A stretch of DNA of 39,046 nucleotides from a virus. The stretch is taken from positions 1 through 39,046 of the IMG/VR virus record IMGVR_UViG_3300010885_011300. The stretch is one strand, 5' to 3'. The notes beneath the pieces were generated by a model. It was not told the DNA's origin and did no database searches. It saw nothing but the letters and a program-made list of their open reading frames with translations. Of this stretch, positions 8,046-39,046 are shown in pieces; positions within the stretch are counted from its first letter, which is position 1, and each line of letters opens with the position of its first letter. The position numbers and the translations under genes were made by a program.

Positions 8046-11000
8046 TTAATTTTGTCCTCTGAAGAACCTTGCGGCATCAGTTTGGGTGATTTGTAGTGCC
8101 TGCCCGTTGGTGGGTTTTACACCCGGTCCATACCATCCTAATGCTTGCCTTACACGGATTGAAACTTCATACCCTGCTGTGGGCGCTGTATCAAAAGTGA
8201 TTGTTGCAGGTGCAACTGAATCCACAGTATAACCTGTGTATACACGTATTCCAGCAACATACACCAAGATTGCTTGCTCAGCAAAACTCAGTGCCAATAG
8301 ACTCAAGTCAATATTTGGTGCCGAGAATGTTGTGGTAGAACCATCTGCTAACGTATTTGTGTATACAACACGATCTTGATATTCAGCTGGGGCAAGATTT
8401 CCTCTACCAATGTTATACACGATAGAATCCACTTCATGATTGGCTGCTGCTGTTCCGGCTGTGCCGCGCATCAAACTGCTGACTGTGTTGTTAGTGGTAT
8501 CGAGCACACGATACATTATACGTTCACCGTTGATCGTAATCGCACCCCAGATGTTGATATTCAGATTGGGTTCGGTCAATGCGCTGGCGTTGTCTACGTA
8601 AATGATATCCTGACCTTTCAACAATGGCTGAACCAATGTTGTAGTAGTTGCCGGGGTCATACGATAGGTAGCTTGAATTCCACGCATGTCCTGGAATACG
8701 CGGAATTCCATGGCTTCGGGCACAACTGAATCTGTAAACAACTGAGCCACTACCACATCTGTTTTGCTGATTACCGGACCGTGCAATATCAGCTGCTCTC
8801 CAGAAATCAGATAGTCATCACCATAGAAGATATGTTTACCATTCTTTGTTACCCACATGCGTGTAGGGTCTGTGATCACTCTTCCCAATTGGAAATCATT
8901 TACGTTCACTTGGATACCCTCGGTGTAGTCAAAACTACCTGGGTCGTAGTTCACATCTCCTAAGTCAAAATCTGTGCTGTCAAAAGGCTCATTTACTACA
9001 GCGCCCTCAATGACCGGGCCTTGCCATAACAATGTTACTATGCTTTGTTGTGCTGTATCATTCCATGATGTCACACTAACTATGTCACCATATCGAGGAT
9101 AGAAGCCGCCAGTGGTGCGGAATACCAGTTGGTAGTTATCTATACTGCTGCTGTCGTCTGAGATTATATAATCTGCTTTGGTAGTCACGCTGATTAGAAC
9201 TTCTGATCCCACACTAGGAGCAATAGTAAAATCTACATATCTAGTATCATTGCCAGTGTATGGCTCTACGAGATAATCGCTGCCTAACGTGAGTTTTTCG
9301 TTATTCACATATACTAGAACATCATTGTCCGACACTAGTGCTAAACTGTATCCGCCGCGAGTAGGCAATGCATACCCTGAACTGCCATCTGCTATGTAGA
9401 ACGCACCCTCGGGCGGTCTGGCACGGATACCATTGACTTCTACTACCAAGTTAGGAACATTGGTGCCGGACATGGAATTATCAAGTTGGTAATCTAATTG
9501 CCCATAGCTTATAAAATATTGTGTCTGCGGAGTAGACCAAGTGTATGGCAATGATCCATCTGTATTACCAATGGCTGTGATGTTTAGTTCATCTGATGAA
9601 GTATATGTGTTGGCAAAAGCTATGTTTGTAGTTTGATTTACACCTGCTGTATAAGTGTAATCGTTTATCAACGCACCATTGACAAAGATCACCATGTCAG
9701 AGATTTCAGCATCTGCCACAGGAATATTCAAGAAGTTACCAACATCTGCACCGTTGTAAATGTTTCTGTAAAGTTGATTTCCGCCACCAATGCCAAATAT
9801 GCTGATCACTAATGCATCACCATTAGCAGCTGGGGGTGCGCTAACGCTAGGAATGATCTCTACAATTTGATTGACCCAATCCACAGCATATGCTATACCC
9901 AATGCAAGATCGCGCCCCTGGGTTAGATTAGTCACACGTATTTGCACTGGATCAGCTAGTGCTCCAGCAAAGCTCTGTGTGTATGCCAAAATGCTGTTGT
10001 AATTCCATTTGATAGTATTCCAGGCAAACCCATGGCCGTCGCCATCCCAATCGGCACCCGGACGGGTATAGACACGGAAATCTAATGTGTCAAATTCTGA
10101 ACCAGGCACCAATTCTTCAGGTGCGTGGCTTTCGTATGGTCCAACAAACTCGCCACCATTTACATTGATATCTGTAGGCCGCAGGCCTAGATAGATATCG
10201 CGGAAGTTACTTTCGTATATGGTATCTAGGATACCCGGATCATATGTGGGTCTGCCTTCGGGACCATAAGCAATGTTATCAAACGGATTTATGTCAAAAT
10301 TACCTACATCAAATCCAGTGTTTTGACTGAATGTCGGTGCGGATACTTGCACACCCGGATAAGTTATGCCGTCAATCAACAGACCTAGATCTAATCCTGG
10401 CTCATTAACAGATGGCACGTATAATCCCATGGTTCTGTCCACACCACTCAATCCAGTATTAACTGGTAACTCAGTTGTAACATCCAGATTTAAAGGATAT
10501 GAGTAAGTGCCGGCATTCACCAGCGACCAATATGCAGGGTCGAACGTAGCAGATTCTACTGCTGTGGCCCTGGCTGTGATAGTAGTTGATAACACAGTCT
10601 GACTAAGAGATACAGTGTATGTTCCAACACCACCGTTGCCGGAGAGATAACCGGTGATTATAGTGCCGCTGGTTACTCCAGTTCCGCTGATTACCATATC
10701 TATCTCAAGTGCTGGGCTGCCGTTTGGCACCTTGGTCACTGTCATCACTGAATTTTTTATAGATGCTGTGACTGGAATCTTTGGACTATTGGCTTCCCAT
10801 ACTCTGTTATCGTAGCGCACCAAGGTGCCATTGTTGTATGACACATTTGGTTCCCAATCAACAATGGTAGATGCGTATTGATATCTGTCATACCTCATCG
10901 TGAGATTGAAACTGCGAACCAAATTGTAGTATTGTGTTTCTCCGGCAGTTTCTGAGTTAGGATCAGTGTTTTCGCCTTGACCCGGTCCGGACATGATGGC

Positions 11001-14000
11001 TACCAATTGTCCGCCGGTGCCGTTGCCACCACTTAATGTTATGATAGCAGTGGTGATGTATCCAACCCCAGGATCAACAATAGTGATTCCGGTTATATGT
11101 CCTTCCCCATTTATATTAACCTTGATCACAGCAGGTGAAACACAATCGCCGGTGACTGTGGCTATCGGAGCCACGGTATATCCTGATCCTGATTCAGCTA
11201 CTATAGCACCTACTACAGAAAGGGTGTAATTTTGATACCAGAAATTCCAAGGCTGATCTTGCCATATCAGACTGGTTGAATCCGCATCACTCACATCACT
11301 GGGGTGACCAGTGCCCACTGCTGTGCTCACTGTATAAGGAGTGAGTATAGGGCTAATAAACTGATTAGGAATCACATTGGTATCGTAGTATGCAGGAACA
11401 TCAAAGTCGGTCATCGATCCTTGATAATCATCTATACCGTTGTAGATTAGATTCAACTCACGTATCTGCACATGATATGGTTTGATTTCTTGGATGTAAT
11501 CAACCACAAAATCTTGATTGTCTCTGCGATAGGTTTGGAATGCCAATAGTTCACGTATGGTGTGATCTACGTCAATCAACGACGTTTTTGTCAACCAATT
11601 GGGCGCCAAGAACTCTGACAGCACAAAGTTAAACATCAATATCAATGCACGGTTGCGTTCAACGAGGAGTTCGTCAACTAACAATTCTTGATTGACAGCT
11701 TGGATTATGCGGCGAGTTTCAATCACTGGTTCTTGATCAAAATATTGCGAATCAAATACTTGCGAATCAAATCCAAATTTGCCGGCTTCGTAGTCCCATA
11801 GCAATGAAGAGATTTCTATAGTGCCATCTTGAAGTCCTACACGTTCCCATTTATTGGTAGTTACACGTAGATATATTTCCCATTTGTTTTGTGAGTTGGC
11901 AGTAACACGCACACTGGATCCCACCGGTGCTTGATACAGGCTCAGCTTGCTGAGGTCACTGTATACCGCCACTGTGGTGATAATCTGTATGCTAGAATCG
12001 TAATCAGGTAGATACCAATTGATATGATTCCAATATTTTCGAGTGTCATAGTTTTGGACTCTTATCAACAACAGTGTGGCAAATGTTTTTGCCTCGGTAA
12101 CTTGATATATAGCCCAAAGACCGTTTTCTCTAGAATCACTGGCCACTAGATATAGATATCCCACAGGAACCTGTGCAAGATTCTGATAACTGAGTTCTTC
12201 AATGGTTGCAACTCGCTTGTCCCAATCACCAATTCCTGCTGGTGGCTCGGGTTCTCTACTGTTCAACAATGCAAAACTACGAATCTCAGTGATAGGGAAT
12301 TGTGCCAATACTGAATTCACTCGGCCAAAATAATTCTTCAATGCCAAGAATCTATCGGCAAACATACTCTGACGTGGACTGAATTGCACGCCATAGCGAT
12401 TAGCGATACCAAGTGTGACATCCGGAACCTGGGCGCCAGTGGTGTTTACGCCACAAAGACTGTCTTGGAACTTGAGATATAGATTGTCAGGAAGGAATCC
12501 ATCTGCGCGATTTTGTGGAACCAAGCTATATTGCACGTGAACATTGTTGTCTGTGAGCTGTTGATCAAACTCAATACTGAGCACAGTATCCTGCGCTGAT
12601 ATATCATTGGCAGCATTATAGATAGCTGTTGCGCTGGCAGATAAGAACGCCACATACGGTATGCCAGAAGAGCGCGGATCTGCAATGTATCTTGATATCC
12701 CAACCGCACTTAGAGTTTTTCCAGCACGAGTATCTATGGTAGTGATTCCACTCACCCAGAAATAATAGGTTGTCTCAATCATACCGCTGTCATTGATTCC
12801 AGAAACAACATTATAACTCACACGGTTTCGAGGAGTGCCCGGTCCTGTGTAGCTTGCCGGTGGAACAGAGCTGGCGACCCATTGATAAATGTCAATACTG
12901 GATCCTGGGAAGATCTGACTCCAACGTCGTGACGCATAGGTAATATTATCTTGGTTAGGGTCAATAAATCTTGTTCGAGTAGTATCCCACCACAATTCGC
13001 CCACATGTGCTGCAAACCAACTCTGGCCATGATTGTTTATAGGGCCAACATTATAAGCAGCAGGATCAATGGCTCCTGTATAATTGAGATTCTCACTTGC
13101 TGCACCCAGAATCTTACCTTGTAATGGATCAATAAAATCAAAGTATGTGGTCTTGGCTCCGGTTACAAGACTATAGCTATAAACTGAATTGATCAATGCG
13201 GTATTGACCACCGGAACTTGTTCACGTATCACTGTCCAAGCAGGGGTAAGGTCGTAGTTGGTAAATCTTGCCACACGACCGTAGTTTAACTCGCTCAAGG
13301 TGCTGTCATCTATATCACTGCCAGGACTACCAATTAACAATACTCCGTCTGTATAGCTCACTGCAATTCCGTAACGGTCTAACTCTCTCACTCGCTGATC
13401 GTATACTTGTTGGCCAAACACAAATTTGCCTGGATTGCTCACAGAGTCAGATGCACTACGCAGATAATCATAAGTGTATACCGCACCACTCTGATATAGA
13501 GGACCATTGAATGCTGTGGTGCGTCCATCAAAATAAGTTTTGCCCTTGTCAAAAGTATTTGGTCGATATATATTGCCTGCGGGCGCACCTACGGTCAGGG
13601 TCAATGCCGATGTGTCGATGTTTACCGCAAAACCAAATTCAGCATTCAACACTGGTGATGGGCTGGTGATAGTTTGAGTGTAGGCAAACGTGTTGAATCC
13701 TAGACGTTGGAACATATCGCCTATCAATCCAGGCAGCACAGTGAGTCTATTGCCCTCTTCGGCGGCTACTAAATTCTTCACGCTCACAGTCAATAACCCA
13801 AAGGCAGATGTGCCGGGCAATCCGGTACTGGCTATGATATTGGCAATGCCCGATGAATTGATGTCATTGACCAAACTTGCAACCCAGGTGCTCTGTTGCC
13901 AATATTTGGTATCAGTTATAGCTGTTCCAACAGGAACAATCTTGATGGAACGATATACACCAAGATCATATTGAACAATACTGTTGATTGGCCAGGCTAG

Positions 14001-17000
14001 ATTGATGTTCCATTGGTCTAGCTCACTCATGATCACTTCTTGATCATTTATTCTTATGCTTTGCCCCGGCTGCAATCTTGGATTCACATTCAGACTGGTA
14101 GTGACTCCATATACTCTACTTTGATTTACATTGCGTTGAACCGACCCAGCATAAGGCAATATCGAACTATCTTCCGGAGCACCTGTGTAGAGACTGCAAC
14201 TGTATCGGCAGATATCCACAGCTGATCCAAATGCTGAATTAGTTGGAACATTAGCATTTATAATCTGTAGTAAATTGAATGTGTTGGGTTGTATTTGTAG
14301 AACATCGCCCACTGCCAGAGTCTCGTCAACCGTGACTGTTGCTCCGCTTACTGAGAACGTTCCACCTATATTGTTTTGAGTATTGGTCAAGAATGCATTA
14401 TTCAGCACCACAAAAGTAGGATTGACCAATACACCACCATCCACTGTGTAAGCTGTTTGTGCAGCATCTGTGATCACAAAGTTTTGCACTGATCGATCGT
14501 AAACATATACTGCACCGGCGCGAATCACATCGTCATAGCGATCATTTGGTGTTCCAGCCATGACCTGACGTCCATCCACTGTGCAAGCCACGCTGTGTCC
14601 AAATCTAGCATCGTCCGGCAATCTAGCTGTGATAGTAGTGGATGCTACAGACTGGCTAGGATATACTGTGTATGTCCCAACACCGCCGGTGCCCGAGATG
14701 AAACCAGTGATTGTGGTTTCAGGTGTGCTGGTCACCCCATTGCCACTGAGTTTCATTCCTTTGGTCAACAGTGGGCTACCAATAGACACACCGGTCACTG
14801 TCATAACAGATCCTGATATAGAAGCTGTGACCGGAATTGTGAATTCTATAGTGTCGACCAAGTCAAAATAACTGGTAGCTGTGGCAACAATATTAGAATC
14901 TGATGCTGGCACATTGATGAATATTATGGCGTGTCCATAGCTGCTGTCATCGTTTACATATTGATAATCAATATTTGGTCGTTGTAGGACCCCATTTACT
15001 GATACTTCAAAACTGTAGACGTTGGTTGCAGTATACAAGTAGTCTTGTAATGAGAACTCGTTGGCAGATCCGTCACCTGTGTATGCTATTGAAGTTCTAC
15101 GACCGATCTGCAATGTTAACTGGCTAGGGGCCGGGGAGTTGAGAACTATATTGGTAGCAGTTTGTGTGTAATCCAACCCGTAAGTCAATAGTCGATTGTT
15201 TAACACCACAGTAAGTTGTTCAGGATATGATGGATCTACCACACAATAATCACTGTAATTGAAAATAGTCGTGGTTCCATCGCCCACGTATGAGACTGAT
15301 TGAGATTGAACTTCTACTAATCCATACGCAAATACTTTGTTAACCCCCGGTGCACCGATATACATCCAATGCTCATCACGACTCATAGCCACACTGTAAC
15401 CAAACTCTGCTGGTAACAACAAATCTTCAGTATCGGGCACAGTGAGTAATGCGGTCGGTGTAAAAGTGTTTGCGCCTGGAAAACGGTAAATTACCGCTGC
15501 ATAACCACAATCGTTGTAACTGGCTGGTGCACCGACAACTTGCCAGGACTGATTGCCTATACTGGTTGACCATCCAAATAACAATGTATCCGGCACACCA
15601 GATAATTCAACCACAGAATTTTGTAGGAATGGATTGATTGATGTGCGTATGTAGGTATACACAGCACCGGCGCCCGAATTAAATGTTGGGCTGCCAACTA
15701 TAGCGTATAAGTTATCTTTGCTTTGCGCTATGCTCAATCCAAACAAACTGTCAGTTTCGGGAACAACGGCTTTGATTTCAGTGGCCGAGGTGAATACGTC
15801 TTGCTTTTCTAATACTTGCCATAGTCCAAGACCATTGTTGTCTACCCAAACTTTATTGCCAGGTATCAAGCTGTTTGCATAGGGCAAATTAACCACATCA
15901 CTGGCTTGACTCACACGCTGGGTTTGTAACACAAATCCGATACCATTGCCAGTTTCAATAGTTTGACTTTGGTTAGCAAAAGAGAATATCGCCACCAATT
16001 GGTTTATGCTAGGAGCACTTATTATCTTATAACTTCCGTCAACTTGGTCAGAGAAGTATCTCACAACAAATGTAAGATTTGCATTGGTTGCATTGACTGT
16101 GGAAATACCATGTGGTTCAGTGAATGTAAACACACTAGTGCCATCAAGATTTGTGGTTATAGAACTGAGATATCCAGGCAATGTATTGATCCTGTAGATA
16201 CCCCAATCGTAGTTATTGATTTTAGCGGCCCATATAGTTGCACCCAACACCACATCGGTGAGACTTGCATCTAGATTAATAGGAATAGTTAGATCAAACA
16301 CTGTGATATCAACGTCATCAAAATTAACATAACCGGCGCTGGGCAATGCTGTGTCTGTGAGTGGCACAATCTCTGTGGTTAATATATTAGGCGAAGTTAT
16401 CTTATAACTGCTCTTCCATAAGTTGTTGACCAACACAGTTTGATTTGCATCGCTGCTTTCTCCAGGTTCTATCACCTGTATAGTGCTAGGGTTAGCAGTG
16501 AGTAATGCTTCATTTAGTTGCAGTTCGTAGAAACTACGATTGGCATTAGCACCGTAAGTTCCTCTTAGAATAGCCCAATTTTCATAGATCTTATATTGTG
16601 CAACACCGCGACCTAGATCAGCAAGTGAGAATATCTCGGCTGCACGTTGAGTTCCTTTTGTGCCCAAAAACTGTTGATACAATTGAACTTGACTGGTAGA
16701 ATCCAGTTCTAGGTTCACCATGTATTGTCGAGGTTTCCAACCGATCAGGCCATACGCAAATAGATCTTGATTGAGTTCAAGATTAGCAGTATATACATTG
16801 TAACTGTTGGCCAGCTGATCACTCTTGTTGGCTGCGTTGGGCAATAGGCCTTGCTGTATGCGGGTATAGTCTGACACTACCCAATTGGTGATTTCAAATT
16901 TGCTGGAAGGTTGCACGATATCTACCGCGCTGTAATAAGTGTTTTTCCATTTTACTATCTCACCTCGAGAATATTTCTTCAATGGATCCCATTGTTTGAT

Positions 17001-20000
17001 ATTATCTTGATTCAAGATAAAGCCCGGAGCATTCAGCTGACCGTTCCAGTTTGTGGTATTCCACCCTACAAGACGTATACGGCTCTGTCTAGCGCCAGTG
17101 ATAGGATTGTAAATCAAGTCATCAAAAATACTCACATTGTCTAGAACAATCATGCTTTCATAACTGGTAAACTTGATGTTAATGAAGTTGATGGTTTCTC
17201 TGCTTAAACTGGTGATGCTGAAAACATTGTCCACTCGATCGACCACAAGATCTCTAGTGTTGTATTGTGTGCCATTGGCTGTGAGAATCATGTTTTCGGC
17301 AGTTTGGGCAGCAATGCTATCTACTATAGCACCTGGCTTCTCTACTATGAATTGGCTAGCGTTAGGGTTAAGATTGATGATCGAACCAGGCGCCCAGCCT
17401 TGATTGCTCCAATACAAAAACTCACTGACCATCTGATTCCAGTCCAACACATATCCGTTTTCGATATTTTTAAATATCATCCCTTGTTGTTGTAACAGAG
17501 CACCATAGCTCAATAAGAAATCAGCTACCAATGTGCGATTCACAAATTCATATGAATAGGGAATTTGCACCACATTGTTGGTATATTCAACTGGAACACG
17601 AACTGTGCTACCACCTGCCGAGATTGTGGCTAGTTGACCACTCACACGGCTTTGTAAAATATTAAAGTATGGTTGACTCTGATTGTAACCATATACTGTC
17701 CATCCTGCCTCAGTTGCCTGCACAATCACGCTAGAATATGTGAGTTGGGCAAAAGGCACATTTTTGTAGAACAGTAAATTATAACTGTCGTCGGGCAATA
17801 GCAAACTAGAATTTGAACTATTAGGACTACTTTGTTCTGTGTAAATCCCTAGGAGATTCTTTGCAGAGAAACTAGCCATCCTGTAACACAATCTCACGTC
17901 AAGATTCTTGAGATCGGCAGTGAGCGCATCTGTGGAGTTAATACCACGCTGTCTATTGAAATCTACGATCCAATCAATATAGCTGGCTTTGCTTGTTCCA
18001 TTGCCATAGATTTCCACACCATTGGCATCTAATCTATAACGCTGGTTGTAAAGATATTGATCGTAGTCAGTGTCAAATCTGTAAAGGTCTCTGTCTGCAA
18101 ACAATGAGAAAAATTCTGCAGGGCGAGTCAATACCAACAGTCGCATGATAGCAAAAGGATATGCGCTCGAGGTGCGCCATGCATTTTCTACAGGGCCGTC
18201 ATCACCGGCAACCCAGCTTTTCTGGAAATCGTTGCTGTTGAAATTGCCTACCACAGTTTGCATAGGACTTAGTAATGCACCTTCGCTACCAGCAGGTATT
18301 ACATCCAACAATCCCGGACGCACATAGGCCGGACGCACATAAGGTGCCACTGGATCCCGCACTAGACCTGCTGCAAGATCTCCCCACAACACCAAGTTAC
18401 CCGAAGTGTATGGTGGCGGTCCGTATTCGTCCATCCACCACAGGGGCATTTCGCTAAAGCCCAACATCTCCCAAGGTCTAGAGGTAGGATAGATTGTGTC
18501 GTAGAAATAGTTGTAAATGCCGCGCCAGGCTCCCACTGCTAGAGGATCACCTGTGAGTTTGTTTGATGCAGTTGAATAGTTCCAGGTGAACTGATTGGTT
18601 TTTACATAATCCTGTGCCTTGTAATCTAGCTTGTTCCATCCCACCCAGGCTAAGAAATCTTGATTCAATATATCTTGAACTTCAAGAAGAGAATAGTCAG
18701 TGGTGCGGAATTCTCCTGGGATTACATCTGCTGCTGTAAGCGGAATTGGGTTACCGTCTAGTTTTAAATTGTTATAGATCCTGGTTTCGTATTCTAACAA
18801 CAATTCATCGCGGAAATCATTGAATGCCCTAGTGATTGACCCATCGTGCCCACGGATTACAAATACTGGATCTACATATGTGGTATCTAAAAAGATCTCT
18901 GGCACGTAAGCAGGATACAATCCTAGTTTGGTAGGAGTGTTAGGAACATAGTTACCGTAGGTTGCTTCGTATTCTTGTATGGTAACAACATCACCAACAG
19001 ACAATGGCACCAAGATAGTGATAGTAGGAGCATCTGTGCTGACTATGTATTCAACACCTCTGGTCAATAGTCGACTTTCACCATTGGTGTAAGAGCCACT
19101 GAGATATACCAGCAAGGCTTGATAGTTGGCTGATTTATAGTTGTATACCTGTGTGAGATCAAATACCTGTGTGGTAATTGGGGTTACCGTGGTTTGTATC
19201 TGTGTATAAACTGTGCCAATAGGCAGCATGTCTGACCAGTAGAATGGATTTGAACTATTACGTGCTACATTGATCTCAGAAAATACTGCATTGAGTATTT
19301 CCGGGATGGTCATGTTTACATAATCGCCAGCACCTGCTTGATTTAAAAATTGTGCTTTGAATTTTTGATATTCTCTTGAATTGTATTCCAGTGAGGCAAA
19401 AATATCGTAGTCTGGTTCGCGCAGGAAATATCCAGCCAAAGTCATTGGAGAACTCTGTTGTAATATGATCAGTCCATAAGGAATGATATTACCTAGATCT
19501 CTGGTGTTGTTAGCACCATTCGCAGCGCCTGTTAAGTTAACTAGATTCTGTGTGATGCTATCGTAATGTGTTCTGATAGTTCCCAATGTGAGATATGGAC
19601 TATTACCATTCAATGGATTATTTTCCAAGTTGATAGGAACTTGATAGAATCCTACTTTACTGACCTGGTCACTGAGTGCCAATACTTCTACAACATCACC
19701 ATACACTAGTTTTGTTCCTGGATTGATCGTTATCACAGTGTTGGTATCTGTGGTAGTTACTGTGTATGTTGTTGGATCCTGGAACAAACTGCTGTAATTC
19801 TGTGAAATACTTGTGGCGTAAAATTTAACACTAGGAATGGAGCCAGTGGGCAGCACCGCCACATCCAAGATAAACGGTGTTGTTGCTGCCATCACAGTAG
19901 GCAGCACAGTTTGAGAAATGCTGACTGAGTAAGTTCCTATTCCACCTGTGCCGTTGATAAGGCCAGTAATCTGGGTGCCAGTTGCTACGCCTTTTCCACT

Positions 20001-22667
20001 CAGTCCCTGGCCTATCTGTAGAGATGACCCATCTGCTGGTGGTGTAGTGATCGTGAGTGTGGTTTCATTTATGAATCCGGTAATAGCCACTGGCGCATAG
20101 GTAAAACTGAATTGTTGATAGATTTGGCTCTTGACTGCGGCTTTTTGCCAGCCGATTTCCTTTTGATACACAGTTCTGTTTTCATACTGTCTTACATAGC
20201 CCTTGCTGATATTTTCAGTTGTGCTGACATTGTCTCTGGTGTAGATGAATGTATCTACATAGAGATTGTTATCAAATACGATATCTCCGATATTGTTCAA
20301 GCTGAGATATCGCAGGGAGAATCCCAGCACAGTATCTTCAATACCGCTAGTGCCCAAAGCGTAGCTAAACAACGCACTACCACCAATGATATCTCCGAGA
20401 TTGTTTTTGGTTGTTCTAAAAGTTGAACTAGGATAGACCACACTATTACCCAAGCTATATCCAGCCTGATCATACACATCAAACATCGGTGATTGATTTA
20501 CTTGGGTCTTTTGTTGTGATTGGATCCACTGCACACCGTCATAGTAAAAGGTCACACCTTGCAATGTATTACCACTGAGACATACCACACATTGATCTAT
20601 CAGTGCCTGTGCATCATCTGCAGGCACAAGATCAATAACAGGTTGTTCGTTGAGTAATGTGCTGTCATGCAATTCATCTGAGGCTGGACTGATAAAGGTA
20701 ACCACATATACTTTATCGCGAACTTGCGGATCAGAATCAAGGGCAAAAATAACTCTATTGCCTTGTTGTAATTCATATCCGTCCACATAATATCCGGTAG
20801 CACCATTGACATTTGATAATGCATCGCTTTGATTGAGGTCGATCACGCTCACTGGTGCTTTGGCCTGTGTGCCCATGTTATACAATCGTGTGCCACCTCG
20901 GAACTCAATAATAGGTCTTTTAGCGCGGAATGTGTTATCTAACACAGCCGTGGTATTGTTATAAGCAGCGGCTGCGGTTATTACATCGATATGGAACCAA
21001 CGATTTGATCTTGTCCATGCATTTAAATCTGGACTGTCCAAGGCTATGGTAAGATAGTCGGGATCCAGGGGTTCATTCAATGTGCCGTCCCAATTACTGG
21101 TATCCCAGGGCACAAAATCCCAAGGCAAACTAGCAGTTCTTACAATCTCTGGGGTGATATAATTGGTAACTGGCAATAGCTGTATGGCGGTGCCTACACC
21201 GGCTACATAATAGGTCTGACTTTGATAACTAGACGGCACCACTGTGCCTTCAAATGTGATTTTGAGATTGTTAGTAAACACTACTCCATTTGGAGATGTG
21301 TATGTTTTCTTGCCCAGGATATCAGTTATCACATTGATAGAGTCTGAATTGACTTGATCCACCAGTCTTATCTGTCCAAATATGTCCGGGTTAGTTCCGT
21401 CTTGATACCACAGCAGATCTTTCACAGCGGTCAGTAGAGGTATCTGTTGGAAGTATCCTTCGGCATTGCGATACCATTGAGTGCTACTCCATTCGGCACC
21501 AAACAGCACTGTGAACTTGCTGAGATTTGGACAGGCTGTAACAGATGTGAGATTCAGTATAACATCACCGCCCACGGTGTTTTGATACTGGATCAACCAC
21601 ACGCTGTATCTGGTATTCACATCCAGGATTGGTGTGGCCTGATCATAGGTCAGATTATCGTAACTGCCAGGCAATCCGTTCTGGCTGTCTAATCTCAGCA
21701 GTGGGTCGAATTGTGTAGTGATCACCCATCCACCATCCTGTGGATCTGTTATAGTGTTTGTAAAAACTATAGTGCGACCATCGAGATTGGTAATACCGTC
21801 AATGCCGTTGGGGTTTTGCTCCAGGAACACTGACAATAGTATATTGTTGACTTGATCAAATTTTAAAGTGGTGGTCAACAAATCTACCTGCCCTGGCGTG
21901 GGCACTGTGTCTATCAGTGGTAGATTGTAGTAAAATTGCTGAGCATTTTTATAAGGCACATCAAAGCTCACCACGCCAGAGTCTTCACCGTTGTTGGTGA
22001 CTCCATACACATCTCTTGAACTTATGTTAGGAGCATATGGTAAACGACCGCTTATACCTGGCTCAGATTGTATCCAGAACTGGTTGGGTGCTTGATTTAC
22101 TGAGAATTTATAGTTTCCGCCACGGACCAATGTGAGAGCTGGATTATCGCCCAATATGGTTGAGAAATCATAGGCAGTATCTGTCCTAGTGACCTCAAAA
22201 GTTTCTGTGGTTGGTATAGTGGTTGGACTAACAATCACAGATAGTGGTCCACCGGGCAACCAATAATATTGACTGTAATTTGAAAACTTGTCAAAGTTTA
22301 TGAAAGGATCCCAAGTGTAATAATCACTGGTATACAATCTTGCGGCATTATTAGTGAACGCACCTTGCCGTGATAATGCGTCAGATATGCCAGGATAGGT
22401 GATAGCACCAACTAGATGGTCACCAGTGTCAGGCGCAAACTTGACCACACCGGGTTCCAGTTGATAATTGGCTCGTTCGGCAGTGGGTTCTACTACGTAG
22501 TAGTCATTGGGATTTACCCCAGGGCCAACTCTTCTTCCGATATAGCCTTGTGTTTTTTTGAATTCTGGCTCCTGAACCAATTGATCCAATGTAGCCGCCA
22601 GGAACTGACGGTTGGTGCTGGTTTGAAAAATTGGTGGTAGAAAATCTACGGTTCTAGTTGTGGCCAT
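8046..22667 (-). CDS. Giant baseplate/tail structural protein (4873 residues)
   Basis: One uninterrupted frame of 14.6 kb. The N-terminus ([52 protein letters not shown]) is, as I recall it, diagnostic of a family of very large structural proteins in uncultured aquatic myophages. It follows gp6 directly with a TAATG overlap, the place of the wedge gene 7 in T4. Seven FG-GAP-like repeats lie between about residues 2309 and 3135, and three copies of a ~70-residue beta repeat lie near residues 858-930, 2611-2683 and 3964-4034. Further segments resemble fibre modules ([14 protein letters not shown]). Near residue 3700 a helical block ([16 protein letters not shown], then [12 protein letters not shown]) interrupts the beta-rich sequence. 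It is probably a baseplate wedge/peripheral scaffold or long fibre; no enzymatic motif was seen. Confidence 0.85.
10567..10776 (-). repeat. Third copy of the ~70-residue repeat in the giant protein
   Basis: The encoded segment begins [13 protein letters not shown] and ends [13 protein letters not shown], with the internal pattern [26 protein letters not shown]. It is close to the copy at 14622-14836 in protein and visibly similar in DNA. Confidence 0.85.
11010..11205 (-). repeat. GSGYT-type two-fold module in the giant protein
   Basis: The segment carries [14 protein letters not shown] and, about 30 residues later, [15 protein letters not shown], separated by a Gly/Ile-rich turn. Such paired GxGY modules are common in phage tail-fibre shafts. 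Confidence 0.6.
13264..15743 (-). repeat. Seven FG-GAP-like repeats (candidate beta-propeller) in the giant protein
   Basis: Seven units of the form (F/Y)G-x-(S/A)-(V/I/T)...(V/I/Y/A)G-(A/S/T)-P, most followed by a G-A-V-Y-T-Y-like strand, occur in order: [48 protein letters not shown] and YGIAVSYT. The matching second halves are VGSP, VGAP, IGAP, AGTP, TGAP, VGAP and IGSP. Inserted strands of variable length separate them. Canonical DxDxDG calcium loops are not evident. Confidence 0.75.
14622..14836 (-). repeat. Second copy of the ~70-residue repeat in the giant protein
   Basis: The encoded segment begins [15 protein letters not shown] and ends [12 protein letters not shown], with [17 protein letters not shown] and [11 protein letters not shown] inside. 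It lies within the span of the FG-GAP repeats, just before unit 4. Confidence 0.85.
19880..20095 (-). repeat. First copy of the ~70-residue repeat in the giant protein
   Basis: The encoded segment begins [15 protein letters not shown] and ends [14 protein letters not shown], with [15 protein letters not shown] and [13 protein letters not shown] inside. It is the most divergent of the three copies. Confidence 0.8.
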
Positions 22668-35795: not shown

Positions 35796-35829
35796 TTGAC
35801 AAACCCTCAAAATGTGTTATAATAAATAC
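35796..35829 (+). promoter_or_regulatory. Near-perfect sigma70 promoter of gp55, overlapped by a late-like box
   Basis: TTGACA (35796-35801) and TATAAT (35818-35823) are both perfect and are separated by 16 bases; TG at 35815-35816 adds an extended -10. The -10 runs into AATAAATAC (35821-35829), so TATAATAAATAC also resembles a T4-type late box. The predicted start near 35830 leaves a short leader with AAGGA (35836-35840) before ATG 35850. Confidence 0.85.
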
Positions 35830-35849: not shown

Positions 35850-36749
35850 ATGGCCACCATCGCAAGAGCAACACCAAAAACCAATTATCTCAACAACAGA
35901 GATATTCTCAAAGAAATACACCTCAGCAAGAAAAACTATTGTGCCTACATCAATCCTGATCTAGACCACCAATACGACATCATCTTGCCCAGTGTGAGCA
36001 AGATCAATCAAAAAACCACAGCAGAGGCACGCCGTAACCGTGCAGATCGCATCAAACGTGAAACTGGTGAGATTGTAGATCCCAAGAAAATACCCAATAC
36101 AGACGTAGTTTTCCGTGTGATGACCTGGGAACACATACCCATGGCACCTAAAAAGATCACCAAGGCCGCTGCCAAAAAGCGCAAATTGGAAGAACTATTA
36201 GAACTAGAAGATGCCGTAGAAGATGATCCATTAGCAGGATTGGTAGACGAAGTAATCTTGGATCCCACACACATGCGAGTGAACTTTCCTCCGTTCTTTC
36301 ACTATCGTGTGGATGACAAAAAAGAACCCGTGCTAGTTGGCAAGAGCCATTGGCGGGGTGATTTAGAAACCGGAGAGTTCTCCAAGGATCACGGAGAGAT
36401 GACCCGCACCTTGGCAAAAATGTTTATGAAACTTTGTGAACGCTATGCCACAAGATCAAACTGGCGCGGATACACTTACAACGAAGAGATGCGCGGGCAG
36501 GCCCTGCTACAGTTGAGTCAGATTGGATTGCAGTTTGATGAATCCAAATCACAGAATCCATTTGCTTATTACACCGCTGCTATCACCAATAGTTTTACTC
36601 GTATCTTGAACATCGAGAAAAAGATGCAGAACATCCGTGATGATATCTTGGAGATGAACGGACTTAATCCATCATGGACTAGACAGAATTCCGGCAAACA
36701 CAGCATGGAAGCTATGAGTGGCCCGGTGGTAAGCACACTAGACGAATGA
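35850..36749 (+). CDS. gp55: Late-transcription sigma factor, gp55-like
   Basis: A 299-residue protein, longer than the 185 of T4 gp55. The segment DESKSQNPFAYYTAAITNSFTR (about residues 230-251) is the recognisable gp55 core, a region-2-like helix pair that in T4 contacts the late -10 box on the host RNA polymerase. The N-terminus (NYLNNRDILKEIHLSKKNYCAYI) and the GLNPSWTRQ tail motif also fit my memory of gp55 from marine T4-like phages. A charged Lys/Glu-rich stretch near residues 98-125 is probably flexible. It has its own host-type promoter and AAGGA site, so it should be made before the late genes. Its TGA overlaps the next ATG (ATGA at 36746-36749). Confidence 0.92.
   Translation: MATIARATPKTNYLNNRDILKEIHLSKKNYCAYINPDLDHQYDIILPSVSKINQKTTAEARRNRADRIKRETGEIVDPKKIPNTDVVFRVMTWEHIPMAPKKITKAAAKKRKLEELLELEDAVEDDPLAGLVDEVILDPTHMRVNFPPFFHYRVDDKKEPVLVGKSHWRGDLETGEFSKDHGEMTRTLAKMFMKLCERYATRSNWRGYTYNEEMRGQALLQLSQIGLQFDESKSQNPFAYYTAAITNSFTRILNIEKKMQNIRDDILEMNGLNPSWTRQNSGKHSMEAMSGPVVSTLDE
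36721..36749 (+). repeat. Direct repeat A, copy 1: gp55 3' end
   Basis: Twenty-nine bases encoding the last gp55 codons (..PVVSTLDE-stop) recur at 37941-37969 with three mismatches, inside the scar between the two cargo genes. Confidence 0.85.
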
Positions 36750-37903
36750 CTGCAACACAAAAAGTATATTGCACAGCACCTTGGACTGGTCTGACTGTTC
36801 GAGAAGATGGTCATGTTCGGACTTGTTGTGCCGGTAAGATATCTTTAGGTAATTTAAATCAAATCAGTATGGATGATGTGATCAAGTCTGATTCACTTAA
36901 ACAAATACAACAACGAATGCTCAGTGGGGAACCAGATTTAAAAAATTGTCAAGACTGTATCAACAATCAATCTCAATCAGGACTTGCTACTCTAAAACAG
37001 CATTACAATCTATTTTACCCTGAAATTATCGTTGATCAATTTGAACTAAAAACTTTAACAGTATTTTGGAACAATGCATGCAACATCGGATGTGTATATT
37101 GTGGACCGACTTTTAGTAGCGTTTGGGAAAATCGCGATGGAATTAAACGTAGTTCAGTGTCCAAAAACTATCAAGATGATTTGTTAAATTGGATCTTAGA
37201 CAGATCTCATCAGCTTAATGAAATTATGTTAGTAGGTGGTGAACCCATGCTGATGAAACAAAACTATAAACTGCTAGAAAGACTATCACCACAATGCAAA
37301 ATCACAGTGATCACTAATTTAAACTACAATTTGCCCAAACTTCCATGTATCTCTGACTTATTAAAAAAATCTAGAGAAAGCATGAGTTGGAATGTGAGTC
37401 TTGAAAATACTGGTGCAAAATTTAATTATGTGCGTAATGGTGCTGACTGGAATCAGATTGAAGAAAATATCAGATATATCAATCAACACTGGAATGACTC
37501 GATATCAGTTAATTTTGTATATGGAATGTTCAGTGCGTTTGACATAGTGGATACTATAAAAACTTTGCACAGGTTAGGAATCAAAAAAATCAATATATTC
37601 CCAATCAATGACAACCAAAGCATGAATGTATTTAACATGCCCGAAATTATCTGTCAGAAAGCCGCAGAACAACTTGAGTTAGCACAACAATGGCATCTTG
37701 AGAATTTGCATCCTGAAGATAGAAACTTTTACCCGATGCAGGGGGTAGATTCATTGCTGGATCAACTTAAACAGTCTACTAAGAAAACAGAAATCACACT
37801 GGACATGTTCCTTGCCCAGGTCAATGCATACGATCGTTACAATCATCAAAAATTCAGAGATCTTTGGCCCAATGTGATCGACCTAGTGGACAAATACCTG
37901 TAA
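36746..37903 (+). CDS. Twitch-type radical SAM protein (cargo gene 1)
   Basis: A 385-residue protein. The cluster motif is C112-x3-C116-x2-C119 (CNIGCVYC), followed by a LVGGEPML strand. Before the core lie C9, the EDGHVRTCCAG segment (C27, C28), LGNLNQISMDDVIKSD and C68-x2-C71. This is the cysteine and 'DG..V..C...LGN' pattern of a SPASM/twitch domain, but N-terminal to the catalytic barrel. It is a relative of the genes at 582-1637 and 1-585. It is inserted between gp55 and gp47, with ATGA overlap to gp55 and a scar after its stop. By eye its sequence is more A+T-rich than gp55. The substrate is unknown. Confidence 0.88.
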   Translation: MTATQKVYCTAPWTGLTVREDGHVRTCCAGKISLGNLNQISMDDVIKSDSLKQIQQRMLSGEPDLKNCQDCINNQSQSGLATLKQHYNLFYPEIIVDQFELKTLTVFWNNACNIGCVYCGPTFSSVWENRDGIKRSSVSKNYQDDLLNWILDRSHQLNEIMLVGGEPMLMKQNYKLLERLSPQCKITVITNLNYNLPKLPCISDLLKKSRESMSWNVSLENTGAKFNYVRNGADWNQIEENIRYINQHWNDSISVNFVYGMFSAFDIVDTIKTLHRLGIKKINIFPINDNQSMNVFNMPEIICQKAAEQLELAQQWHLENLHPEDRNFYPMQGVDSLLDQLKQSTKKTEITLDMFLAQVNAYDRYNHQKFRDLWPNVIDLVDKYL

Positions 37904-37938
37904 AATATATCAATGACTACTCTATTCCGCAAAGCCGC
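37872..37938 (+). repeat. Direct repeat B, copy 1: radical SAM 3' end plus gp47 start
   Basis: Sixty-seven bases cover the last codons of the radical SAM gene (VIDLVDKYL-stop), a 9-base gap and the first nine codons of a gp47-like gene. They recur at 38685-38751 with nine mismatches and no gaps by hand alignment. Confidence 0.85.
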
Positions 37939-37969
37939 TAGTCCGGTCGTAATCACACTAGACGAATGA
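37913..37969 (+). pseudogene. Recombination scar: in-frame chimera of gp47 start and gp55 end
   Basis: An 18-codon frame reads MTTLFRKAA, matching the start of gp47 (MTNLFRKAA at 38726), joined directly to SPVVITLDE-stop, matching the end of gp55 (SGPVVSTLDE at 36717-36749). The frame is kept across the joint near 37939. The TGA overlaps the next ATG exactly as the gp55 TGA overlaps the radical SAM ATG. It looks like a recombination joint between two genomes that carried different cargo between gp55 and gp47. Translation as a peptide is possible, but no clear ribosome-binding site precedes it. Confidence 0.85.
37941..37969 (+). repeat. Direct repeat A, copy 2: gp55 3' end in the scar
   Basis: This copy matches 36721-36749 at 26 of 29 positions. 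It supplies the stop codon of the chimeric scar and the overlapping start of the second cargo gene. Confidence 0.85.
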
Positions 37970-38694
37970 TACATTACAATCCAGACCTTGAGAGATTTGT
38001 TGACGGCGTTGATTTTGGGCCCAATGATCCTTGCACCTGGATAGTATATCCTGTCGGTTGTGCCGGGGATTTACTGTCCAGTATCGTGAATTTTCACTAT
38101 GTTGAAACTGGAGCAAGATTTAAAGGTATTAGCAGCAAGGGACAGGTCATATTTAAAGGATCTGACCAAAAATACACAAACAAACTATGGCAAGCCAATC
38201 AATTGAAATTTGATGAGCAATACTTTTATGCCCTTGCAGACATATTGTCATCAAACTCGACACACTGGTCAAAGATGGATTGTTTACTATTTTCCACTCA
38301 CTTGTATCGAGATCATCACATGCAAATGATACTTGATACTTTTAAGAATTGTAAAATTATAAGATTTTTACCAAGAACACACGGTGATCGGGCTATAACT
38401 GAGTGGATGGGAGAATTTAAAAATTCTGTGTCTGACGTGATTCCGGAATTTGTGATTCCCGACAATCACCACATGGAAATCACATATGCAAATACAATAT
38501 CTGATTCAAGGCTACTAACAGTATTTTTCAAGGATGTTATAAATTCTGCAAAATTTAAATCAACCTATCAATTGATACAAACCCATCTGGGATTTCCAGG
38601 TCCACTAATCACTTACGATTTTATTCAATTTTGGGTTGATCAACAACCGTTGCAGATACAAAGTTACATCAAGTCTATTGCCGGATGTGATTGA
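37966..38694 (+). CDS. Cargo gene 2, unknown; weak P-loop/sulfotransferase-like features
   Basis: A 242-residue protein. The N-terminal strand and loop WIVYPVGCAGDLLSSIVNFHY (25-45) could be a degenerate nucleotide- or PAPS-binding loop (G31-C-A-G34). LLFSTHLYRDHH and KIIRFLPRTH follow, and the C-terminus has FPGPLITYDFIQFWVDQQP, reminiscent of the last helix of phage sulfotransferase-like proteins. The usual GxGKS/T motif is absent, so the call is tentative. Its ATG overlaps the scar's TGA. Its last codons run, in another frame, over a remnant of a radical SAM C-terminus (from 38685), so the original 3' end may have been replaced. The composition is A+T-rich like that of the other cargo gene. 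Confidence 0.55.
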   Translation: MIHYNPDLERFVDGVDFGPNDPCTWIVYPVGCAGDLLSSIVNFHYVETGARFKGISSKGQVIFKGSDQKYTNKLWQANQLKFDEQYFYALADILSSNSTHWSKMDCLLFSTHLYRDHHMQMILDTFKNCKIIRFLPRTHGDRAITEWMGEFKNSVSDVIPEFVIPDNHHMEITYANTISDSRLLTVFFKDVINSAKFKSTYQLIQTHLGFPGPLITYDFIQFWVDQQPLQIQSYIKSIAGCD

Positions 38695-38751
38695 CCTATC
38701 TGAAAATTACCTGTAAACTGTATCAATGACTAATCTATTCCGCAAAGCCGC
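38685..38751 (+). repeat. Direct repeat B, copy 2: out-of-frame radical SAM remnant plus gp47 start
   Basis: This copy matches 37872-37938. In one frame it encodes DVIDLSENYL-stop, the tail of a radical SAM protein, but cargo gene 2 enters in a different frame and stops at 38694. The gp47 ATG lies at 38726. Confidence 0.85.
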
Positions 38752-39046
38752 GATCTTTACTGACATCCACTTTGGACTGAAATCCAACAGCACCACTCAC
38801 AATGAGGACTGCCTAAACTTTGTGAAGTGGGCTACTACCAAAGCCCGAGAGGAAGGTTGCGAGACCTGCATGTTCCTTGGTGACTGGCACAACAACAGAG
38901 CCAGTCTAAACATTGTCACACTGAACTACAGCCTACGGGCGCTGGAGCACATGAATGCCAACTTTGATCGAGTATATTTTATTCCTGGAAATCACGATCT
39001 ATATTATAGGGACAAGCGTGATATTCAAAGTGTTGAATGGGCACGC
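38726..39046 (+). CDS. gp47: Recombination endonuclease subunit gp47, 5' part (runs off the right edge)
   Basis: A 107-codon open frame to the window edge. It shows the calcineurin-like metallophosphoesterase motifs of the SbcD/Mre11/gp47 family in order: F-T-D13-I-H15-F-G, L-G-D-W-H-N and P-G-N-H-D. In T4 gp47 pairs with the ATPase gp46 and resects DNA ends for recombination-dependent replication; gp46 would be expected just beyond this window. The start at ATG 38726 (MTNLFRKAAIF) is confirmed by the duplicated start in the upstream scar. No strong ribosome-binding site is visible. In copy 1 of the repeat the radical SAM stop is nine bases before the ATG, whereas here the upstream stop is 31 bases away, so translational coupling may be weaker. 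Confidence 0.93.
   Translation, partial: MTNLFRKAAIFTDIHFGLKSNSTTHNEDCLNFVKWATTKAREEGCETCMFLGDWHNNRASLNIVTLNYSLRALEHMNANFDRVYFIPGNHDLYYRDKRDIQSVEWAR

Follow-up and report, generated by a model that had tools for sequence, protein, structure and literature searches.

It is accepted that T4-type phages gain accessory genes between their core genes by illegitimate or ectopic recombination, a modular shuffling with few clues to its agents (PMC2993671). Homing endonucleases mark some exchange boundaries in phages, and variable islands lie between conserved genes (PMC10448857); T4 UvsX stitches DNA ends together through 3-4 nt (PMC8262927). In T4 itself the interval between the core genes gp55 and gp47 holds a-gt, mobB and small genes (a-gt.2-.5, 47.1). 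Arbiol et al. (2010; cited in PMC4177764) are said to have proposed PeSLs, mobile regulatory cassettes of T4-type phages whose promoter-bearing module ends are tied to gene shuffling. Here we analyse the gp55-gp47 interval of the IMG/VR viral record IMGVR_UViG_3300010885_011300 (39,046 bases, all of it analysed and called the window), where two accessory genes (cargo) stand in series and are separated by a scar, an 18-codon chimeric frame that fuses the start of gp47 to the end of gp55. We give a probability of about two in three to the reading that cassettes of this slot are swapped in co-infection and that the scar is an illegitimate join of two cassette-bearing genomes of one pool.

The window resembles the known cases of T4-type shuffling in its gain of genes between conserved replication and transcription genes with no mobile-element signature at the junctions; it differs from them (PMC2993671) in that both flanking core genes can be read in the chimeric junction itself and the parental junctions are present in other phages. 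It is a well-resolved case within accepted T4-type shuffling, not a new category. The T4 interval has the same two core genes around its accessory genes, but the cargo families differ, and T4 has a homing endonuclease gene (HEG) there while the window has none. Islands associated with HEGs likewise place variable genes between conserved ones (PMC10448857), but the window interval lacks an HEG, and among the loci examined only L010 has a candidate. Minihomology end joining by T4 UvsX would be able to produce a join of this kind from 3-4 nt or less, although it was described for deletions after CRISPR cleavage, unlike the cargo stacking seen here (PMC8262927). A moron is an independent transcription unit with a promoter and a terminator of its own; the cargo of the window instead overlaps gp55 at its start (ATGA), and a search for a + strand terminator found none. 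Nor is the insert an integrase or transposase element: domain and PHROGs scans of the interval ORFs (open reading frames) detected no integrase, transposase or recombinase domain, which agrees with the integrase-free stacking proposed in a preliminary description of this DNA. As in a PeSL, a promoter-like sequence lies at the module end; unlike a PeSL, this putative promoter is partly inside the coding end of the preceding gene, and neither junction has a stem-loop (folding z-scores against shuffles -0.33 and -0.57).

A chimeric frame between two cargo genes

On the + strand the interval runs gp55, a radical SAM gene (rSAM), the 18-codon frame, a second cargo gene (cg2) and gp47 (Table 1). The preliminary description had given this order and the frame, as well as ATGA overlaps at both cargo genes, and all of these were found, rSAM starting on gp55 and cg2 on the scar ORF. 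It overlooked an rSAM relic between cg2 and gp47, and also the promoter-like sites before the scar ORF and gp47.

The best match of the scar's gp55 end is the window's own gp55; every other locus matches at 22/27 positions or fewer. This half had been called the last nine codons of gp55 (SPVVITLDE). The copy is real, but the wording is approximate, because gp55 ends in MSGPVVSTLDE and the copy is without the Gly codon. When the interiors of all cargo-bearing intervals were scanned with position-specific scoring matrices, copies of the core-gene ends appeared in the window only, at 22.7 bits (gp47 start) and 20.8 bits (gp55 end), against maxima of 16.4 and 14.0 bits for shuffles under a dinucleotide model. 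The likeness of both scar halves to core-gene ends exceeds chance.

Each half is a native junction elsewhere. L008 has the left half (rSAM stop, 9 nt, gp47 ATG), and its rSAM, 65% identical, is the sole cargo between the two core genes. L055 has the right half (gp55 end, ATGA, cg2), with a cg2 73% identical that directly follows gp55. Because L008 and L055 carry the two parental junctions, we read the scar as a fusion of two separately existing arrangements. At the join, the gp47 start and the gp55 end share a few bases at most. An in-frame GCTAT microhomology of gp47 and gp55 was considered as the cause of the in-frame join and dropped, no allele pair fitting it cleanly. Pattern scans of 2.9 million viral contigs, which may omit records of the window's own genome or very near ones, gave 0 other matches to the exact scar (as a degenerate pattern) and 0 matches to a generic scar (gp47 start, 0-30 nt, gp55 end). 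The preliminary description had held that a conserved 18-codon gene would speak against a scar; the frame is not such a gene.

The relic between cg2 and gp47 aligns locally with the rSAM 3′ end at a score of 42, which 0/1000 shuffles equalled, and differs from the tail of the window's own rSAM at 10/45 positions. In alignment the relic-gp47 junction has the same form as the rSAM-9 nt-gp47 junction. An rSAM-end relic also follows cg2 in L055 (p 0.004), with no rSAM upstream, so the cg2-relic junction seems to be older than the stacking.

The two cargo genes differ in how far they can be classified. The rSAM protein scores 220.3 bits against NF033640, above the curated cutoff of 170, and also matches PF04055 and PF13186. 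For cg2 there was no match in Pfam, PHROGs or padloc and a single NCBIfam match, below cutoff; no homologue was found in GenBank phages or in 84,980 prokaryote genomes. Its relatives in viral contigs are those of L055 and L070 only, in the same slot. A structure model built from 3 sequences has a predicted local distance difference test score (pLDDT) of only 38.

Table 1. Features of the gp55-gp47 interval of the window and of its upstream edge
Feature	Positions	Strand	Remarks
Perfect sigma70-type promoter sequence	35796-35823	+	TTGACA-N16-TATAAT; upstream of gp55; consensus 12/12, score 14.8
gp55, late sigma factor	35850-36749	+	phrog_12791, E=5.7e-78
gp55 3′ tip	36700-36749	+	unlike nearest gp55 relatives, nearest cargo-bearing phages; Ser codon AGT
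Cargo 1 (rSAM), twitch-domain radical SAM protein	36746-37903	+	ATGA overlap with gp55
Promoter-like sequence	37878-37906	+	TCGACC-N17-TAAAAT; rSAM 3′ end, 6 nt before scar ATG; 3% of shuffles as good
Scar, 18-codon chimeric frame	37913-37969	+	MTTLFRKAASPVVITLDE; gp47 start fused to gp55 end
gp47-start copy in scar	37913-37938	+	25/26 nt identical to window's own gp47
gp55-end copy in scar	37943-37969	+	25/27 nt identical to window's own gp55
Cargo 2 (cg2), 242 aa, unknown family	37966-38694	+	ATGA overlap with scar ORF
rSAM 3′-end relic	about 38674-38716	+	out of frame (..PDVIDLSENYL-stop); overlaps cg2 end, before gp47
Promoter-like sequence	38691-38719	+	TTGACC-N17-TAAACT; inside relic, 6 nt before gp47 ATG
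gp47, SbcD-like nuclease subunit, 5′ part	38726-39046	+	continues past window end; phrog_100, E=4.9e-26; PF00149

Occupancy and turnover of the interval

Intervals were collected from 80 gp55 loci and from loci fetched via the cargo genes, giving 114 distinct gp55-gp47 intervals, a sample biased to cargo because cargo genes also served as queries. Thirty-eight were empty (20 nt or less), 62 measured 601-1250 nt, 12 exceeded 1250 nt and 2 were of other sizes, so that 76/114 were filled or extended; among the gp55-derived loci only, 38/67 were empty. The slot states are scattered over the gp55 tree, where the window nests among empty relatives. Parsimony counts 18 changes between empty and occupied, near the mean of 21 for shuffled states, so turnover is fast. 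The cargo slot that the preliminary description placed between gp55 and gp47 is thus a high-turnover slot. Its ancestral state was probably empty, because gp55 and gp47 overlap or lie 11-60 nt apart in the isolates 121Q, MIJ3 and Atu_ph07.

All close rSAM relatives (43% or more) having both flanks on the contig occupy this slot, as do nearly all members of a sulfotransferase-like family. The preliminary description had proposed a search for single-cargo relatives of each cargo gene. They were found for rSAM (L008, L027, L037 and others) but not for cg2, both of whose relatives in the viral contigs are in two-gene intervals. Further cargo includes other radical SAM proteins, an AMP-binding enzyme, DUF6071 and an endonuclease-like gene. 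The commonest other cargo is the sulfotransferase-like protein (L057:6906-7796, alignment A4, about 40 related loci), whose model has a pLDDT of 94 and a Foldseek E of 6e-4 to SULT enzymes but a template modelling score of 0.32-0.40. Its lead member has no Pfam match, and Sulfotransfer_1 is matched (E 0.005) in 1/7 members. Kinship of cg2 with this family was considered and set aside, the profile comparison probability of 32-38% being unconvincing.

Some occupants are worth recording separately. The slot of L010 has a gene like GIY-YIG/group I intron endonucleases (1736-2398; match below the NCBIfam cutoff), and the AMP-binding (adenylation) enzyme is the second cargo of L047 (7810-9231). A cargo family with an N-terminal GYVGGSGGF or GYCGGCGGF (L192:4889-5668, L007:985-1755) is paired with the sulfotransferase-like cargo in both loci, once before and once after it; a weak, sub-threshold Tox-ART-HYE1 match was seen in L192 only.

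Six other intervals have two genes (L055, L070, L084, L192, L007 and L047). In the last five no scar rose above shuffles, barring a gp47-start alignment in L047 (p 0.02). L055 was not significant in the generic gapped test; a targeted test picked up 12/13 nt of a gp55 end, shifted by one base relative to the internal ATGA (p 0.007). With this match and its rSAM-end relic, L055 probably carries a decayed scar. Stacking is real, but its scars are usually absent or decayed.

Core-gene ends and cargo

The body of the window's gp55 is closest to that of the empty-slot loci L001-L003 (97-98% amino acid and 88-90% nucleotide identity). Over the last 30 nt, identity to these loci falls to 67-73%, versus 80-83% to the tips of L171, L055 and L057, which bear cargo and have a gp55 78-79% identical to the window's. 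Close to the end of gp55, one Ser is encoded by TCN in 37/37 scorable empty slots, and by the rare AGY in 17/28 of those that are occupied (Fisher p 1e-8); the change from TCN to AGY takes more than one step and is not caused by a need for the ATGA overlap. At the other flank, gp47 starts in the form MN- in 32/44 sulfotransferase-like intervals and in 0/38 empty ones. The gp55 3′ tip and the gp47 5′ end both vary with the cargo.

Promoter-like sequences upstream of gp47

In 38/38 empty slots there is a -10-like TANNNT at a distance of exactly 6 nt from the gp47 ATG, on its upstream side, and the -35-like hexamer is usually within the last gp55 codons (e.g. TTGTAA-N17-TATAAT). Such a gp55-end promoter scores above threshold in 74% of empty versus 7-13% of occupied slots. 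Occupied slots have a new promoter-like site in or just after the cargo 3′ end, and the promoter score upstream of gp47 is above shuffles in every slot class.

In the sulfotransferase-like class the site is TTGACA-N18-TACAAT, close to the sigma70 consensus and within the coding end of the cargo. Synonymous recoding destroys it in 34/41 genes versus 4/39 internal control windows, and LD is spelled CTTGAC in 34/36. This amounts to codon-level selection: a putative gp47 promoter sequence is maintained by synonymous codon choice. The rSAM class gave no codon-level evidence (2/16), as its -10 is placed beyond the stop codon. In L084 an rSAM-end site fit to serve gp47 (TTGCAT-N17-TATACT) precedes the second cargo instead.

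Since cargo separates gp47 from the promoter in the gp55 3′ end, each cargo gene of this uncultured T4-like clade might have to supply a promoter for the next core gene, placed within its 3′ end or at it. Swapping would then be limited to genes of this kind, and the joining of modules would leave scars that act as chimeric leader ORFs, through which the outgoing promoter of the first module reaches the second cargo. We offer this relay tentatively, at somewhat less than even odds. The sites in the window suggest why the relic survived and how cg2 may be transcribed.

Origin of the scar

We infer the order of events and the part of recombination enzymes as follows. A cassette would consist of the gp55 3′ tip, a cargo gene with a gp47 promoter at or inside its 3′ end and, in many cases, the opening codons of gp47. 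Homologous recombination within gp55 and gp47 would be the likeliest means of its exchange. In an earlier swap cg2 would have replaced most of an rSAM gene and left the relic, which probably persisted because it holds the gp47 promoter. A gp55-rSAM-gp47 genome would then have been joined to a gp55-cg2-(rSAM 3′ relic)-gp47 genome, illegitimately and across hardly any microhomology, the joined points being codon 9 in the first gp47 and roughly codon -10 in the second gp55, leaving two cargo genes in series and the chimeric scar. The scar would thereby have acquired the promoter of the rSAM end as well as the start of gp47. With its frame ending in ATGA at cg2, it may couple translation to cg2 as a short leader.

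Several observations weigh against this account. No genome with cg2 as single cargo (gp55-cg2-gp47) was found in the viral contigs. A second clean scar is absent from the six other two-gene intervals, and these do not support a general role for the scar-type stacking that the preliminary description suggested. Within the window the two gp55 ends resemble each other to an unusual degree, their 25/27 identity being reached by 1% of pairs, which a tandem duplication predicts too; such likeness is also expected of a two-genome cross if the parents share the occupied-type tip of their pool. Finally, the linkage of AGY to slot state is weaker, but consistent, once relatedness is controlled: independent pairs give 3.8/7 supported pairs in the same direction and 0 in the opposite one, just 7 pairs being supported (median p 0.125), and a partial Mantel test gives p 0.007 with a small effect (r 0.09).

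It is possible, though doubtful, that selection has kept the 18-codon frame as a leader ORF for the expression of cg2, beyond mere debris, with an rSAM-end promoter and coupling through its ATGA stop. The promoter-like site before its ATG would fit, no comparable promoter was found directly upstream of cg2, and both the frame and the overlap are intact. Among the viral contigs scanned, however, the frame is unique to the window genome, one join in three would be in frame by chance, and a leader function is compatible with an origin by recombination.

A different history, without a two-genome cross at the scar, would be a tandem duplication of the segment from the gp55 end through rSAM to the gp47 start in one genome, produced by an illegitimate join, after which cg2 replaced the second rSAM except its 3′ end. 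It would account directly for the relic before gp47 and for two gp55-end copies that are nearest each other. We think it unlikely, with the relic as divergent as it is from the window's own rSAM tail and with a cg2-relic junction in L055 that seems to predate stacking. The preliminary description's recombination of two genomes at the gp47 start and gp55 end gains from the two native junctions in other phages, which leave room for duplication and replacement; it is favoured over them because L055 has the cg2-relic arrangement without an upstream rSAM.

Insertion driven by a homing endonuclease, in which a free-standing enzyme cuts between gp55 and gp47 and repair imports the cargo, would find precedent in mobB of T4, in the endonuclease-like gene of L010 and in the HEGs at other phage exchange boundaries (PMC10448857). 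It is improbable here: neither the window interval nor nine other slot proteins scanned have an endonuclease domain, and the L010 match is a sub-cutoff one.

An assembly or amplification chimera of two strains, which a 39 kb metagenomic contig with a scar in no other contig might suggest, is very improbable, since the few bases shared at the join are far under any k-mer-size overlap that an assembler would presumably need, and in addition substitutions set the scar copies apart from the native ends, neither the frame nor the ATGA overlap is broken, and the rSAM relic and L055 point to related events in other contigs.

Neighbouring features

The core pair is T4-like, a late sigma factor followed by an SbcD-like nuclease subunit, with matches to phrog_12791, phrog_234 and phrog_100, and the same gp55-then-gp47 order occurs in 121Q, MIJ3 and Atu_ph07. 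The consensus promoter sequence upstream of gp55 sits where the minus-strand structural genes and gp55 diverge. Among those minus-strand genes one frame of 4873 aa spans 8046-22667 of the window.

Two observations concern the core genes of other loci. About 900 bp interrupt gp55 in L180 (3-1751) and L181 (2115-3986), and residues 199-221 occur on both sides; this is an insertion with partial duplication within the sigma factor gene. A second radical SAM gene, more distantly related, is often present 1.1-1.4 kb behind the start of gp47 (L015:9690-10736, L017:8280-9020, L021:8391-9101 and others), which suggests another cargo slot behind gp47.

Conclusions

For the integrase-free insertion of accessory genes between essential genes of T4-like phages, clues at the junctions have been scarce (PMC2993671), and here is a scar that can be read base by base. 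The comparative set around it presents a single slot that empties and refills, carries the ends of both core genes along and appears to rebuild the downstream promoter each time. The scar makes the proposed route testable, and it supplies a rule by which stacking may be searched for elsewhere, namely fragments of core-gene ends lying between cargo genes.

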